DNA of 64,000 nt, taken from positions 62,001 through 126,000 of the forward strand of contig NZ_JAMXFC010000006.1 of NCBI RefSeq assembly GCF_025370755.1, read 5' to 3'. The notes below the pieces were generated by a model. It saw nothing but the letters and a program-made list of their open reading frames with translations, was not told where the DNA came from and ran no database searches. Numbering within the stretch: the stretch's first letter is position 1; each line of letters opens with the position of its first letter. The DNA comes from Laspinema sp. D2d. GTDB lineage: Bacteria > Cyanobacteriota > Cyanobacteriia > Cyanobacteriales > Laspinemataceae. Both the position numbers and the translations under genes were made by a program. Below, one piece after another: positions 22,709-37,742 of the stretch.

Positions 22709-23364
22709 AACTTTGATCTTCACCTCATGCCTTGCTAGATTGCTGAATTGCTCAATGGAATTGATTCCATGAGGTTCAGACAAACCGAACAAATTACTCG
22801 TCTAAGGACACTAATGAGATCGCGCAAATGAATAAAGTTTACCGATCTTTCAGTCTCGTCTCAATGCCGACGGGGTTAGCTGATGGGCGAGGATTGAGAG
22901 ATATCCCTTTTCTAGGCTTAGAAAATAAGCCCCGGAGTTGGTTCCCCCGCTTCAGTTGTTAGATAGGATTAGTAGCGCTTATCTCGATGATTAAACCGAG
23001 TTATGCAAACCCCCAACTGGATTAGGCTGACTTATTTGAACTACGGGTAATATAACCTACTCCTCTGGAAATTTTCCATACCTCTGTAGATAGATTTGAT
23101 AAACGGCTTTAAGGACTCTGATACATCTATCTAAAGATAGAGGTAGAGGTCTGTCTATGGGCATAAATGAGGCGTTTAATGCGGAAATGGAGTAAGGGGC
23201 GATCGCTCACCATAGAGCAGCCCCTAGAATTAAATCACTGATGCCCTAACTCTGGCCTATAGCCCCTCCAGGATTTCTAGGATTTGAGGTATAATGTTAA
23301 GGATTGATGCTGTCTGGGACACAAATTTCGGAGACAGTATTTTAACTTTATTATTTTGTTTCTT
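22709..23364. other. Divergent intergenic region, no gene seen
   Basis: About 650 bases between the glycosyltransferase and DedA genes. The only structure I see is TAGATAGAT (23087-23095) paired with ATCTATCTA (23125-23133). Promoters for both flanking genes must lie here. Confidence 0.4.
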
Positions 23365-33658: not shown

Positions 33659-33987
33659 AACACTACAATAAACTCCTTTCGCCCCACAGTCCGGGTAACA
33701 GCCCTCAATCAATAGTACCCAATCTGGGTCAGGGGGTAGAAAATCCAACGGAAAAGTTGCGATCGCCCTGGGAGGAGAGTCCCTTTTCAGTGCGCTGATC
33801 CCTTGATTTGTCTTGGGGTTACCCGTTTAACCTGGGGTTGCTTACGCCTGTCCCCACCCGTGATCGGGATCCCTTGCCCGGATTCCTGTGGCAGGTGTGC
33901 AGGGGCGATCGGCTCAAATCTCTTCCTTTCACTTTCTCCACAGAACCAAATGCTAAACTAATAAATTGACCCTTACTCGTCATGCTT
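33659..33987. other. Divergent promoter region for REC-GAF and ssb
   Basis: About 330 bases with no supported gene between divergent units. Promoters for both should lie here; no repeat or clear operator was seen. Confidence 0.35.
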
Positions 33988-35830
33988 ATGAGTTTAAATG
34001 TAGTCACCTTAGTTGGTCGAGCAGGCCAAGATCCAGATGTCAAATATTTCGAGTCTGGGAGTGTGGTTTGTAACTTAACCCTCGCGGTGAATCGTCCTAC
34101 TCGGAATAGTGATGCCCCAGACTGGTTTAATTTAGGTGTGACCCGTTAGTTAGAAACCTTATTTTACAAAAATAAGGGGGATTAACTACAAGGAAATGGG
34201 AAAAATTCCCAAAGCCTTGATAACTGAATGTTCATGTTGGTGAGAGTTATTAATATGCCGTTGAAGAGAAAATAAAATCCTTCAACCCCTCAAGTCCAAC
34301 CCTCTCGGATGCAAGAGTGAAAGCATCCTCCTCATCTTTGAAACTAGCACATTCAACGGTGGAAGCAAAGGAGGAAACGGAGGTCATTCGGACCCTTACC
34401 GAAAATCCCTTCTAGCAAGAGGTTATGGGTAGCTGAATGCAAAGGTATGTAACCGTCGTTAACCAGTCCCAGCGAAAGAGGTTGATACGCTGGCGTCAAA
34501 ATGACCTAGGGTTAAACTGTCATCTTCAACCGAAGTTCGACCGCTTGGAATTGCTCATCTAAATGGAGCAATTTGCATCCCCCACACCCTCGGCGGATAG
34601 TACCACCCTAACGCCTCAAAACAATGAACATTCGGAACGGGGAGTCTATGACATTTCTTAAAATCGGTCGATATTTTAAGTAGGTGCTAACCGGATAATG
34701 TCATCAGACGAGGATTGAGACCCAAGCCAAAGCCTAACTGTAATGGTTATGGATATGCTAATAGTCTCACGGTGATTTGGAGATAAATTCATCAACTGCA
34801 ATGCAAATGTCTAAAACCAGTCAATTGACTCGGGTGGAATGGAACAAACTCAACTGGCGTAAGCTAGAACGAGCCGTGTTTAAGTTGCAAAATAGAATTT
34901 TGAAAGCCGCTCAACGGGGAGATACAAAAGCCGTTTGTAAGCTGCAAAAAACCCTGACACGCTCTTGGTCCGCAAACTATCTGGCGATTCGGGAGAGAAT
35001 CACAGCCGAAAAGCAGCAAGGCTCACCTAAATTAGCCTCTAAGATTTCCCAGGTTAAATCTAGTGTTACCCCGGCTAAAATTAGTTCATGTTCTGATAGG
35101 AAGTCTCGGCAAAATCAACAGAAAGGGATAGGCAAGGCTTGTGGCGCGAAACCGGGCGATCGCGTTTTAACCTCTGCCGAAAAGAGTCGGAGTTGTACCC
35201 AAATTCTCTCTTTTCTACTTAAGGCCAATAAAACCGCCAAGCTAGAAGATTTAATCCCAAAAATCAACCAGATAATTCATACTTGGCTCACCCATAACCA
35301 ACATCAATGCAATAGCAAACTCCTTAAGAGAATCTATCATGATTTACACCAAATCATTATGCATTGGGGACGCCGCAGGACCGGGAGTTATCACAGAGCG
35401 TATCATCTCTACTGGCAGCAGCTAAATGGCAAAATTAAACAGGGAAAAAAACCCAATTACGGGCATTCCTTAACCGAAAATTGATCCAGAATAGAGGCTT
35501 TCTATCTCATTAAACCCAATCACTGAGGAGCCGTATGAGGGGAAACTCTCATGTACGGTTTTGAATCAGCGGTTAGCAAGGTGACTGGCTAATCGACTGT
35601 AACAAATCTGGGGTAAAACGGCAGAAATTGCCGCTCAATATGTCCGAAAAGGGAGTTTAATCGGTGTTAGCGGAAGTTTAAAGTTTGAATATTGGAATGA
35701 CCGTTCCACCGGCACTCAACGTTCTAAACCCGTCATTTCTGTTGAACGCCTCGACTTGCTCGGTTCTAAACAGGATAACGAGCAGGGGGGAGGAAATATG
35801 AGAGGGGGTTATCAAAACGATGAATTCTAA
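33988..35830 (+). CDS. ssb: Single-stranded DNA-binding protein, split by a group II intron
   Basis: The gene reads as join(33988-34135, 35604-35830): 375 coding bases, 124 residues. Exon 1 gives MSLNVVTLVGRAGQDPDVKY and on to DWFNL; exon 2 resumes with IWGKTAEIAAQYVRKGSL, GVSGSLKFEYW, SVERLDLLGS and ends NDEF. The junction restores the conserved DWFNLEIWGKTAE of cyanobacterial SSB, with Glu50 split after its first base (phase 1). The OB-fold is complete only after splicing. An ATG two codons upstream (33982) is possible. Unspliced mRNA would stop within the intron and yield about 55 residues with no function. Another ssb elsewhere in the genome cannot be excluded. Confidence 0.93.
34801..35484 (+). 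CDS. Truncated intron-encoded protein lacking the reverse-transcriptase core
   Basis: About 227 residues in domain IV of the intron. The N-terminus (RVEWNKLNWRKLERAVFKLQNRILKAAQRGD, then KLQKTLTRSWSANYLAIR) is the RT-0/N-terminal RNA-binding region of cyanobacterial group II proteins. The palm with YADD and the preceding RT blocks are missing. The C-terminus (INQIIHTWLTH, then LHQIIMHWGRRRTGSYHRAYHLYW) resembles maturase domain X. The frame is open, so it may still be made and aid splicing; the linker between is Ser/Lys-rich and unrecognised. A TTG start at 34777 is less likely. Confidence 0.75.
   Translation: MQMSKTSQLTRVEWNKLNWRKLERAVFKLQNRILKAAQRGDTKAVCKLQKTLTRSWSANYLAIRERITAEKQQGSPKLASKISQVKSSVTPAKISSCSDRKSRQNQQKGIGKACGAKPGDRVLTSAEKSRSCTQILSFLLKANKTAKLEDLIPKINQIIHTWLTHNQHQCNSKLLKRIYHDLHQIIMHWGRRRTGSYHRAYHLYWQQLNGKIKQGKKPNYGHSLTEN
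35528..35599 (+). other. Intron domains V and VI
   Basis: Domain V is the 34-nt hairpin 35528-35561 with the AGC triad at its 5' side, a GAAA tetraloop, and GTACGGTTT on the returning strand. Domain VI is 35567-35599: CAGCGGTTAGC pairs with GCTAATCG-CTG (one G-U), leaving A35596 bulged seven bases before the 3' splice site, exactly where the branch-point adenosine belongs. Confidence 0.93.
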
Positions 35831-35906: not shown

Positions 35907-36479
35907 ATGGCGGTTACTTTAAATTTACAACCTGCGCTAAAAATGACCGTGGAAAAGTTCGCAGAATTAGCGCAAATTAATCAAAATTTACAGTTAGAAC
36001 TAACAGAAACTGGAGCGTTAATCATTATGCCACCAACGGGAGGAGAAACAGGCGATCGCAATTTTGAATTAAGCGGCCAATTGTGGGATTGGAACCGTCA
36101 AAAACGCCTGGGGAAAGCCTTTGATTCCTCCACTGGGTTTCGGTTGCCCAATGGTGCAGTGCGATCGCCTGATGTCAGTTGGCTCAAACTAGAACGATGG
36201 CAGGTATTAACCCCAGAACAACGCAAGAAATTTTTACCCTTATGTCCCGATTTCGCCGTCGAATTAGTTTCCGAAACCGATGAGATTCAAACCACCCATT
36301 TAAAAATGCAGGAATACCTCACCAACGGATTGCGCTTAGGGTGGTTAATTGACCCCGAAACCAAAACCGTTGAGATTTATCGTCAAAATCGTCCAGTAGA
36401 AGTCTTGCAGTCTCCTTTAACTTTATCCGGGGAAGAAGTCTTACCCGATTTTATTCTAACTTTACAACCGATTTGGTAA
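35907..36479 (+). CDS. Uma2-family (DUF820) endonuclease-like protein
   Basis: A 190-residue restriction-endonuclease-fold protein. LTETGALIIMPPTGGETGDRN begins the fold, and the nuclease core is visible as SPDVSWL, then DFAVELVSETDE (E-x-K-like position with Ser) and MQEYLTNGLRLGWLIDPETKTVEIYR. The family is hugely expanded in cyanobacteria and its biological role is unsettled; a PD-(D/E)XK catalytic site is predicted. GAGGAG precedes the ATG. It is only distantly related to the two Uma2 genes that follow. Confidence 0.85.
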   Translation: MAVTLNLQPALKMTVEKFAELAQINQNLQLELTETGALIIMPPTGGETGDRNFELSGQLWDWNRQKRLGKAFDSSTGFRLPNGAVRSPDVSWLKLERWQVLTPEQRKKFLPLCPDFAVELVSETDEIQTTHLKMQEYLTNGLRLGWLIDPETKTVEIYRQNRPVEVLQSPLTLSGEEVLPDFILTLQPIW

Positions 36480-36530
36480 ACCGTAACTCATAAAAAATTG
36501 AAATAAAGCATCAAACCTTAGGAGGATATC

Positions 36531-37103
36531 ATGATTACCAATCCAGACCGGAATTATATGAGACCCGAGGAATACTTAGAATGGGAGGAAAACCAACCCC
36601 TCAAACATGAATATATGAATGGCGAAGTCGTTGCCATGACTGGGGGAACAATTGCTCATAATGAAATTGCCGTTAATTTAACCACAACACTCAAAAATCA
36701 CCTCAGAGGAAAAGGGTGCAAAGTATTAATGGCAAATGCCAAATTAGGGGTGTCTGAATCTGGACCTTTTTACTATCCCGATGTCATGGTCACCTGTAAT
36801 GAACAGGATAAACTTGCCAAAACTATGATTAACTTTCCTTGTTTAATTGCCGAGGTTCTGTCTCCAGGAACTGAGGCATTTGACCGAGGCCAAAAATTTC
36901 AGAACTATCGGCAGATTTCCACCTTACGCGAGTATCTGCTAGTGAGCGCAAACCAAAAAATGGTGGAGTGTTTCCGATTGAATGAAAAAGGGTTATGGGA
37001 ACTCTCAATTTATGGAGAAGGAGAGGAGATAGAACTGGAAAGTGTAGAGTTTCGGGTTCCCGTAGACTTGATTTATGAAGATGTTATATTTAGTGTTAAT
37101 TAA
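36531..37103 (+). CDS. Uma2-family endonuclease-like protein, duplicate 1
   Basis: 190 residues. YMRPEEYLEWEENQPLKHEYMNGEVVAMTGG is the standard Uma2 start, YYPDVMV and CLIAEVLSPGTEAFDRGQKFQNY hold the acidic and Glu active-site positions, and LREYLLVSANQKMVECF ends the core. AGGAGG lies close before the ATG. The next gene is nearly identical except in residues about 44-75. Likely transcribed with its neighbours. Confidence 0.88.
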   Translation: MITNPDRNYMRPEEYLEWEENQPLKHEYMNGEVVAMTGGTIAHNEIAVNLTTTLKNHLRGKGCKVLMANAKLGVSESGPFYYPDVMVTCNEQDKLAKTMINFPCLIAEVLSPGTEAFDRGQKFQNYRQISTLREYLLVSANQKMVECFRLNEKGLWELSIYGEGEEIELESVEFRVPVDLIYEDVIFSVN

Positions 37104-37169
37104 TCCTATTTCACTCGAAATATAAAAATATCGACTTTAAAAGAAATTTTCAAAACCCAGGAGAATATC

Positions 37170-37742
37170 ATGATTGCCAATCCAGACCGGAATTATATGA
37201 GTCCAGAAGAATACTTAGAATGGGAGGAAAACCAACCCCTCAAACATGAATATATGGATGGCGAAGTCGTTGCCATGACTGGGGGAACAATTGCTCATGC
37301 ACTGGTGGCTAGTAATTTATTTTATCAGTTAAAAACTCATTTGAGAGGGGGGTCTTGTCGTCCGTTTATTTTTGATGCCAAAGTTGGTATTTCTGAATCA
37401 GGCCCCTTCCACTATCCCGATGTCATGGTCACCTGTAATGAACAGGATAAACTTGCCAAAAATGTGATTAACTTTCCTTGTTTAATTGCTGAGGTTCTCT
37501 CTCCAGGAACTGAGGCATTTGACCGAGGCCAAAAATTTCAGAACTATCGGCAAATTTCTACCTTACGCGAGTATGTCCTAGTGAGCGCAAACCACAAGAT
37601 GGTTGAATGTTTCCGATTGAATGAAAAAGGGTTATGGGAACTCTCAACTTATGGAGAAGGAGAGGAGATAGAACTGGAAAGTGTGGAATTTCGGTTTCCT
37701 TTAGACTTAATTTATGAAGAGGTTGTTTTCAGCGAGACCTAA
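37170..37742 (+). CDS. Uma2-family endonuclease-like protein, duplicate 2
   Basis: 190 residues, tandem paralogue of the gene 66 bases upstream; start-to-start distance is 639 bases. Residues 1-43 and 76-190 are almost the same, while about 44-75 differ strongly (ALVASNLFYQLKTHL against NEIAVNLTTTLKNHL, and RPFIFDAKVGI against KVLMANAKLGV). The active-site segments HYPDVMV and CLIAEVLSPGTE are kept. The pattern suggests duplication followed by replacement or conversion of one block. Confidence 0.88.
   Translation: MIANPDRNYMSPEEYLEWEENQPLKHEYMDGEVVAMTGGTIAHALVASNLFYQLKTHLRGGSCRPFIFDAKVGISESGPFHYPDVMVTCNEQDKLAKNVINFPCLIAEVLSPGTEAFDRGQKFQNYRQISTLREYVLVSANHKMVECFRLNEKGLWELSTYGEGEEIELESVEFRFPLDLIYEEVVFSET

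Follow-up and report, generated by a model that had tools for sequence, protein, structure and literature searches.

What holds a group II intron in the middle of a core gene of a free-living bacterium, and how far does the cell come to depend on its splicing? The locus that raises the question lies in a window of 64,000 nt from Laspinema sp. D2d, the whole stretch of DNA analysed here, where an ssb gene appeared from its letters to be split by such an intron. The original prediction placed the junction within Glu50, took the unspliced transcript to give a useless stub and supposed that, if this were the only ssb, replication would depend on ribozyme splicing. As set out below, the intron, the junction and the stub have stood, and the dependence of replication has not. 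The reading that we consider probable is that a retro-homing intron has here turned into a fixed, immobile, splicing-only one, whose small maturase, devoid of a reverse transcriptase (RT), is kept by selection.

An ssb gene split within Glu50

Joined by script, the two exons (Table 1) give a single open frame of 124 aa that contains DWFNLEIWGKTAE. The interruption falls in phase 1 of Glu50 and the join neither gains nor loses a base: exon 1 ends ..TTT AAT TTA G at 34135, the intron runs from GTGTGACCCG at 34136 to ..GACTGTAAC at 35603, and exon 2 then begins AA ATC TGG. The predicted 34135/35604 junction is thus exact and, as it recurs identically in 8/8 Laspinema genomes, it reflects neither chance nor an error of assembly. 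Left unspliced, the frame meets a stop four codons into the intron (GVTR*), just the stub that had been expected. Against the NCBIfam SSB equivalog NF005674, which describes the tail-less cyanobacterial type, the spliced protein scores 197 bits, above the cut-off of 161; it ends GGYQNDEF and has no acidic C-terminal tip of the kind found in All4779. Across the eight Laspinema genomes the spliced gene has a dN/dS of 0.20 (from codon ~24), which is purifying selection and implies that the spliced product is needed.

Table 1. Features of the interrupted ssb locus (window coordinates, all on the plus strand).
Feature	Position	Strand	Remarks
ssb exon 1 (codons 1-49 and first base of Glu50)	33988..34135	+	alternative in-frame ATG at 33982
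putative IBS1, ATTTAG (3'-terminal hexamer of exon 1)	34130..34135	+	identical in 8/8 genomes
group II intron, 1,468 nt	34136..35603	+	5' GTGTG.., 3' ..AC; single copy in genome
putative EBS1, CTAAAT, in hairpin loop, complementary to IBS1	34559..34564	+	identical in 8/8 genomes
RT-less intron ORF: RVT_N, linker and maturase X domain	34807..35484	+	225 aa from the start common to 8 species; stop included
RVT_N domain	34840..35064	+	PF13655, E 1.4e-18
maturase X domain, under purifying selection	35209..35412	+	PF08388 GIIM, E 5.4e-6
intron domain V	35525..35565	+	RF04357; hairpin fold predicted
intron domain VI	35567..35603	+	branch-point A at 35596 predicted to bulge, eight nt before 3' end
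ssb exon 2 (remainder of Glu50 through stop codon)	35604..35830	+	spliced frame

The intron itself exceeds the gathering thresholds of two Rfam families, RF00029 (group II intron; 35526-35603, 57.7 bits, gathering 40) and RF04357 (domain V; 62.1 bits, gathering 53), and it has the 5' GUGYG and 3' AY ends of its class together with a predicted bulged A in domain VI. A putative EBS1-IBS1 pairing, found by eye and without covariation within the genus, runs to six of six pairs in 8/8 genomes. Invariant across the genus are 564/671 positions of the 5' part and 80/89 of domains V and VI, as against 378/675 in the ORF. Judged by its sequence, then, the ribozyme is strongly conserved, 84-90% invariant in its core parts, and the intron is catalytically complete; it is presumably spliced in the cell.

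The interrupted gene is not the only ssb

A genome search for a second ssb, which had been proposed as a check, found one: on another contig of the same genome lies an uninterrupted gene for an SSB of 176 aa with an acidic tail ending DDPEDEIPF, and the idea that the interrupted copy stands alone was rejected. The product of the interrupted gene is a tail-less OB-fold SSB of the kind encoded by Anabaena alr0088. For Anabaena, the acidic-tailed All4779, and not the tail-less Alr0088, has been proposed as the major SSB (available portions of PMC3976300). Since the second, tailed SSB is uninterrupted, a dependence of replication on splicing is not supported. The same portions of PMC3976300 describe the two types as found throughout the cyanobacteria, ssb was present in all 76 cyanobacteria studied in a review (PMC5101192, in the part available), and the tail-less gene is near-universal in our own survey, with matches at E <= 0.001 in 379/388 Cyanobacteriales genomes, a few of them weak. 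The interrupted ssb is therefore a core gene, yet not the sole SSB of its genome.

The intact second SSB could be taken to mean that the interrupted locus is dead, an unspliced pseudogene with the acidic-tailed protein doing all the work; we find this scarcely credible, as the exons are open and constrained in 8/8 genomes, to the degree given above, and the core parts of the ribozyme show the 84-90% invariance already noted.

The intron is shared by the genus

In 8/8 Laspinema genomes a full-length intron occupies one and the same base of ssb, the 7/7 others being 84-89% identical to that of the window, whereas ssb is uninterrupted in 6/6 genomes of other genera of the same family. Comparison of sister strains, suggested at the outset as a way to tell a shared intron from a recent one, thus shows it to be shared, and a recent insertion in a single strain is rejected. 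Nor has the intron spread recently, for its divergence is close to or above that of its neighbours: mean interspecies p-distance is 0.102 for the intron, 0.056 for the upstream gene (7 genomes) and 0.100 for the downstream gene (8 genomes). In this sample of eight species the trees of the intron and of the flanking genes conflict, so descent need not have been strictly vertical, and the intron may have been exchanged within the genus. The portions of PMC9500459 available to us give no figure for the age of Laspinema.

That the intron is fixed throughout the genus might also suggest a regulatory switch, in which conditional splicing (under temperature, stress or DNA damage) would set the amount of SSB, and the Anabaena relative alr0088 has been reported to bear on tolerance of UV and mitomycin (PMC5101192, in part). 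The sequence holds no feature that we could recognize as regulating splicing, and splicing alone would explain the conservation. We regard a switch as quite improbable, although it would be compatible with a selected mini-maturase rather than exclusive of it.

A small intron protein without a reverse transcriptase

The intron ORF encodes an RVT_N domain, a linker and a maturase X domain, and a Pfam search finds in it no match to RVT_1, the RT core that a mobile form would carry; alignment with full-length relatives likewise finds neither the RT motifs nor the HNH end. What remains is the combination known from MatK, an X domain retained (GIIM above its cut-off, and constrained, as described below) with RT function lost. 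The same outline emerges from a solved group II maturase RT, 6me0, which the profile matches over residues 17-78 and again over 338-407, with nothing between them, and these segments correspond exactly to the two parts kept in the small protein. An AlphaFold model of the small protein is weak (pLDDT 62.6, pTM 0.38), and a Foldseek search with this low-confidence model gave 0 matches at E <= 0.001 and 65 at E <= 10.

The arrangement appears to be peculiar to the genus as far as our searches reach. With a profile run against a sample of 291 Cyanobacteriales genomes, a match in one piece was seen, among the best matches listed, in the 8 Laspinema loci only, others matching one part; a scan of named genomes gave 66 loci, of which five, all from Laspinema, span almost the entire query, while the others reach no further than roughly half-way from its start. 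In a plasmid collection only partial similarity to intron proteins was found, every record falling short of 80% coverage of the query. For one genome, G005, a Pfam search at E 0.01 did not pick up the X domain.

The frame is open in 8/8 Laspinema species, at 200-225 aa, and so is neither absent nor broken as in ORF-less introns; the sole internal length difference in the alignment consists of whole codons and lies within the linker. In neutral simulations under a simple model with substitutions only, its rate fitted for each part of this small alignment of eight species, 0/1000 runs keep all eight ORFs open, and on average 6.66 of the eight are broken. By the same model the X domain, with a pN/pS of 0.36, lies below the whole neutral range (0/300 simulations as low), whereas the linker (0.98; 240/300 as low) behaves neutrally and the ORF tail has the same value (0.98; 225/300). 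The ORF as a whole stands at 0.70 (17/300). Protein-level selection on the X domain is clear from these sequence comparisons. The RVT_N domain (pN/pS 0.89; 198/300) is a different case, silent and replacement changes being equally rare in it, and its constraint may act on the RNA, on the protein or on both. Across the eight species, the stretch 34840-35064 is nearly without silent changes, with a pS of 0.068 as against 0.27-0.31 further on; an RNA element, for example a stem to which the protein binds, is perhaps the reason.

Possible help in trans or decay

The window's genome (G000) has four further copies of domains V and VI, of two kinds, each lying exactly at a contig end (L106, L107, L108, L109), which suggests multi-copy introns that were lost or collapsed in assembly. 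The same contig-end pattern is seen in G007, and in the six other Laspinema genomes full-length group II proteins are present. The idea that the small protein is the only maturase of its genome was dropped on account of these copies. The assembly of the window's genome itself has one GIIM and one RVT_1 match, the latter presumably belonging to a diversity-generating retroelement, judged by its neighbours: in L082 (1306-3617 of G000:C38), as in L083 of G007, the RT has as neighbours a small ORF and one that resembles a formylglycine enzyme. Full-length proteins missing from the assembly may act in trans on the ssb intron. Selection on the X domain nonetheless argues that the local small protein is still used.

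It is in this light that the small ORF could be seen as a decaying remnant, with the ssb intron splicing by itself or being spliced in trans by full-length proteins, as the contig-end introns and the presence of such proteins in 6/8 genomes would allow. Indeed, the ORF-less introns of Thermosynechococcus elongatus keep N- and C-terminal remnants around a deletion (PMC2882425, in the part available). The frames there are broken, however, whereas that of Laspinema is open in every species, which none of the neutral simulations reproduces, and its X domain is constrained at the level of the protein. Decay thus seems to us unlikely, although it is the strongest of the competing explanations.

Probable origin in a lineage that homes to ssb

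Where the small protein came from is indicated by its full-length relatives. A search for ORFs of at least 400 aa that match both of its parts gave 78, reduced to 46 by removing identical cores, and seven proteins of ssb introns were added by hand for the tree. Among the 46 non-identical full-length proteins, the X domains nearest to that of the small protein are those of G109, G271 and G189 (E 1e-19 to 1e-22; the next is at 1.6e-6), and in the tree these three, together with the eight small proteins, split from the rest with 94% ultrafast bootstrap support. The introns of G109 and G271, which belong to genomes of other families, occupy the identical ssb base, phase 1 of Glu50; for G189, the copy that encodes the protein shares its last 139 nt identically with the intron end at the ssb site, the copy's own ssb context not being shown. 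In G109 and G271, moreover, the 5' part of the ribozyme aligns with the Laspinema intron over its length. The nearness of the X domains, the common ssb site, the tree and the aligned 5' ribozyme together make it most likely, as far as sequence can tell, that the Laspinema intron derives from a lineage homing to this site.

G109 and G271 accordingly resemble Laspinema in the base of insertion, in the 5' part of the ribozyme and in a related protein, but differ from it in that their proteins are complete (RVT_N-RT-X, in 567-aa frames, with a C-terminal part that aligns with the HNH region) and in that their introns, unlike that of Laspinema, are not genus-wide as far as seen.

We would picture the course of events as follows. 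A lineage that retro-homes in cyanobacteria into exactly this ssb site would have placed a catalytically complete group II intron in an intact tail-less ssb, and deletion of the RT core and of the DNA-binding/endonuclease end would have followed before the known Laspinema species diverged, leaving an intron no longer able to move by itself and presumably immobile. The 200-225 aa that remain would comprise the N-terminal and X domains, which in full-length proteins help the intron RNA to fold, and selection would keep this small protein, probably a maturase still, for its help in cis in splicing the ssb transcript. Whether such a minimal RT-free maturase (an N-terminal RNA-binding part, a loose linker and an X domain) splices the ssb intron alone in living bacteria is a narrower proposition, on which we are evenly divided.

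ssb as a recurrent target of group II introns

Laspinema is not alone in carrying introns in this gene. At least 24/388 Cyanobacteriales genomes have group II introns in the tail-less ssb, namely the 8 of Laspinema and 16 others (G109, G271, G189, G085, G133, G238, G299, G272, G201, G157, G176, G224, G368, G241, G230 and G030). An intron was counted if both of its ends, or a domain V/VI end, were found at an exon, and the number is a lower bound, as the 35 of the 388 genomes that were re-examined are those in which the ssb match was weak, absent or supernumerary. One of the searches dropped matches below 45% identity or with E >0.5. Outside the 24 are G262 and G246, with a 5' junction only, and G258 and G236, with contig breaks or a damaged gene; in G189, G176 and G002 the two intron ends lie on different contigs. 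Four sites are used: A (Glu50), B (the first base of Glu22), C (one base before B) and D (Glu58). In the tree, the 11 proteins from site B group together as a single clade (100% support). A conserved gene for a DNA-binding protein is thus a repeated home for site-specific introns.

In some genomes the gene holds more than one. The ssb of two Laspinema genomes, G002 and G006, has introns at both site B and site A, the second, full-length one lying in exon 1 (L035/L295 in G002; L039 4413-6840, on G006:C364, in G006), and the site-B intron of G006 encodes a 583-aa RVT_N-RT-X-HNH protein. G241 (L279) has introns at site B and Glu58, and G224 (L283) has, besides an intron at site B, the 5' end of one at site A where the contig stops. 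In G230:C724 (L243/L248; L243 2188-4614, minus strand) two ssb introns are separated by a single exon base, in the order TTC, site-C intron, G, site-B intron, AATCTGG, an arrangement that could be an assembly error; if it is real, the upstream intron would have to splice out first, giving the second its 5' exon pairing.

Relation to known systems

A close parallel is the chloroplast trnK intron with its protein MatK. That intron is immobile, as the Laspinema intron presumably is, and like it lies in a conserved gene, has a protein that lost RT function while keeping the X domain and has been retained for long (available sections of PMC4424553). In MatK, RT motifs 5-7 can still be aligned and the N-terminal part is long, whereas the 200-225-aa Laspinema protein is without the whole RT core; moreover, the MatK system is organellar and that of Laspinema is bacterial and in a protein gene. 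By analogy, the small protein would work like MatK, and no descent from MatK is claimed. The same sections of that 2015 review list, besides MatK and further RT-less maturases of organelles, a single degenerate bacterial protein, that of O.i.I2 in radC of Oceanobacillus iheyensis. O.i.I2 is of the ML class and lacks YADD and other motifs; in Laspinema, by contrast, the RT core is deleted, the form is common to eight species and selection on the X domain has been measured.

Two cyanobacterial systems are also comparable. TeI3 of T. elongatus has a central ORF deletion and N- and C-terminal remnants (PMC2882425, in part), but these remnants are frame-disrupted, and the intron is multicopy and mobilised in trans, whereas that of Laspinema has an intact frame and is single-copy. 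The Trichodesmium twintron (Tery_4732) likewise sits in a conserved cyanobacterial protein gene and is kept in its genus, with splicing shown there (in the part of PMC4649490 available); it differs in being nested, in having two ORFs for intron-encoded proteins and in its host gene. The remark in the same part of that paper that intron proteins often retain nothing but the maturase domain lowers the novelty of the present case. A literature search for group II introns in cyanobacterial ssb, with most subscription papers outside its coverage, found no report, and the word ssb does not occur in the available portions of PMC8919778 or PMC4649490. In keeping with the original prediction, bacterial group II introns are described as lying mostly outside housekeeping genes, and such genes are among their hosts in cyanobacteria (both in the available sections of PMC4424553).

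Were the small protein to splice the intron alone, Laspinema would offer a snapshot, in a free-living bacterium, of a mobile retroelement turned into a fixed intron that can only splice and has a protein splicing factor of its own. The spliceosome and the introns that it removes are held to descend from group II introns, and the step from a mobile element to a fixed intron with a protein helper has been seen mostly in organelles. As eight free-living genomes share the intron and close mobile relatives occupy the same site in other families, before and after could be compared, and the intron would be a small experiment of nature on which parts of a maturase are enough for splicing.

Two further observations concern the rest of the window. 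Downstream of ssb, three successive ORFs occupy 35907-37742, the first of the Uma2 family and the second almost identical to the third. A c-di-AMP riboswitch lies on the minus strand at 22850-22987 (RF00379, 54.4 bits).
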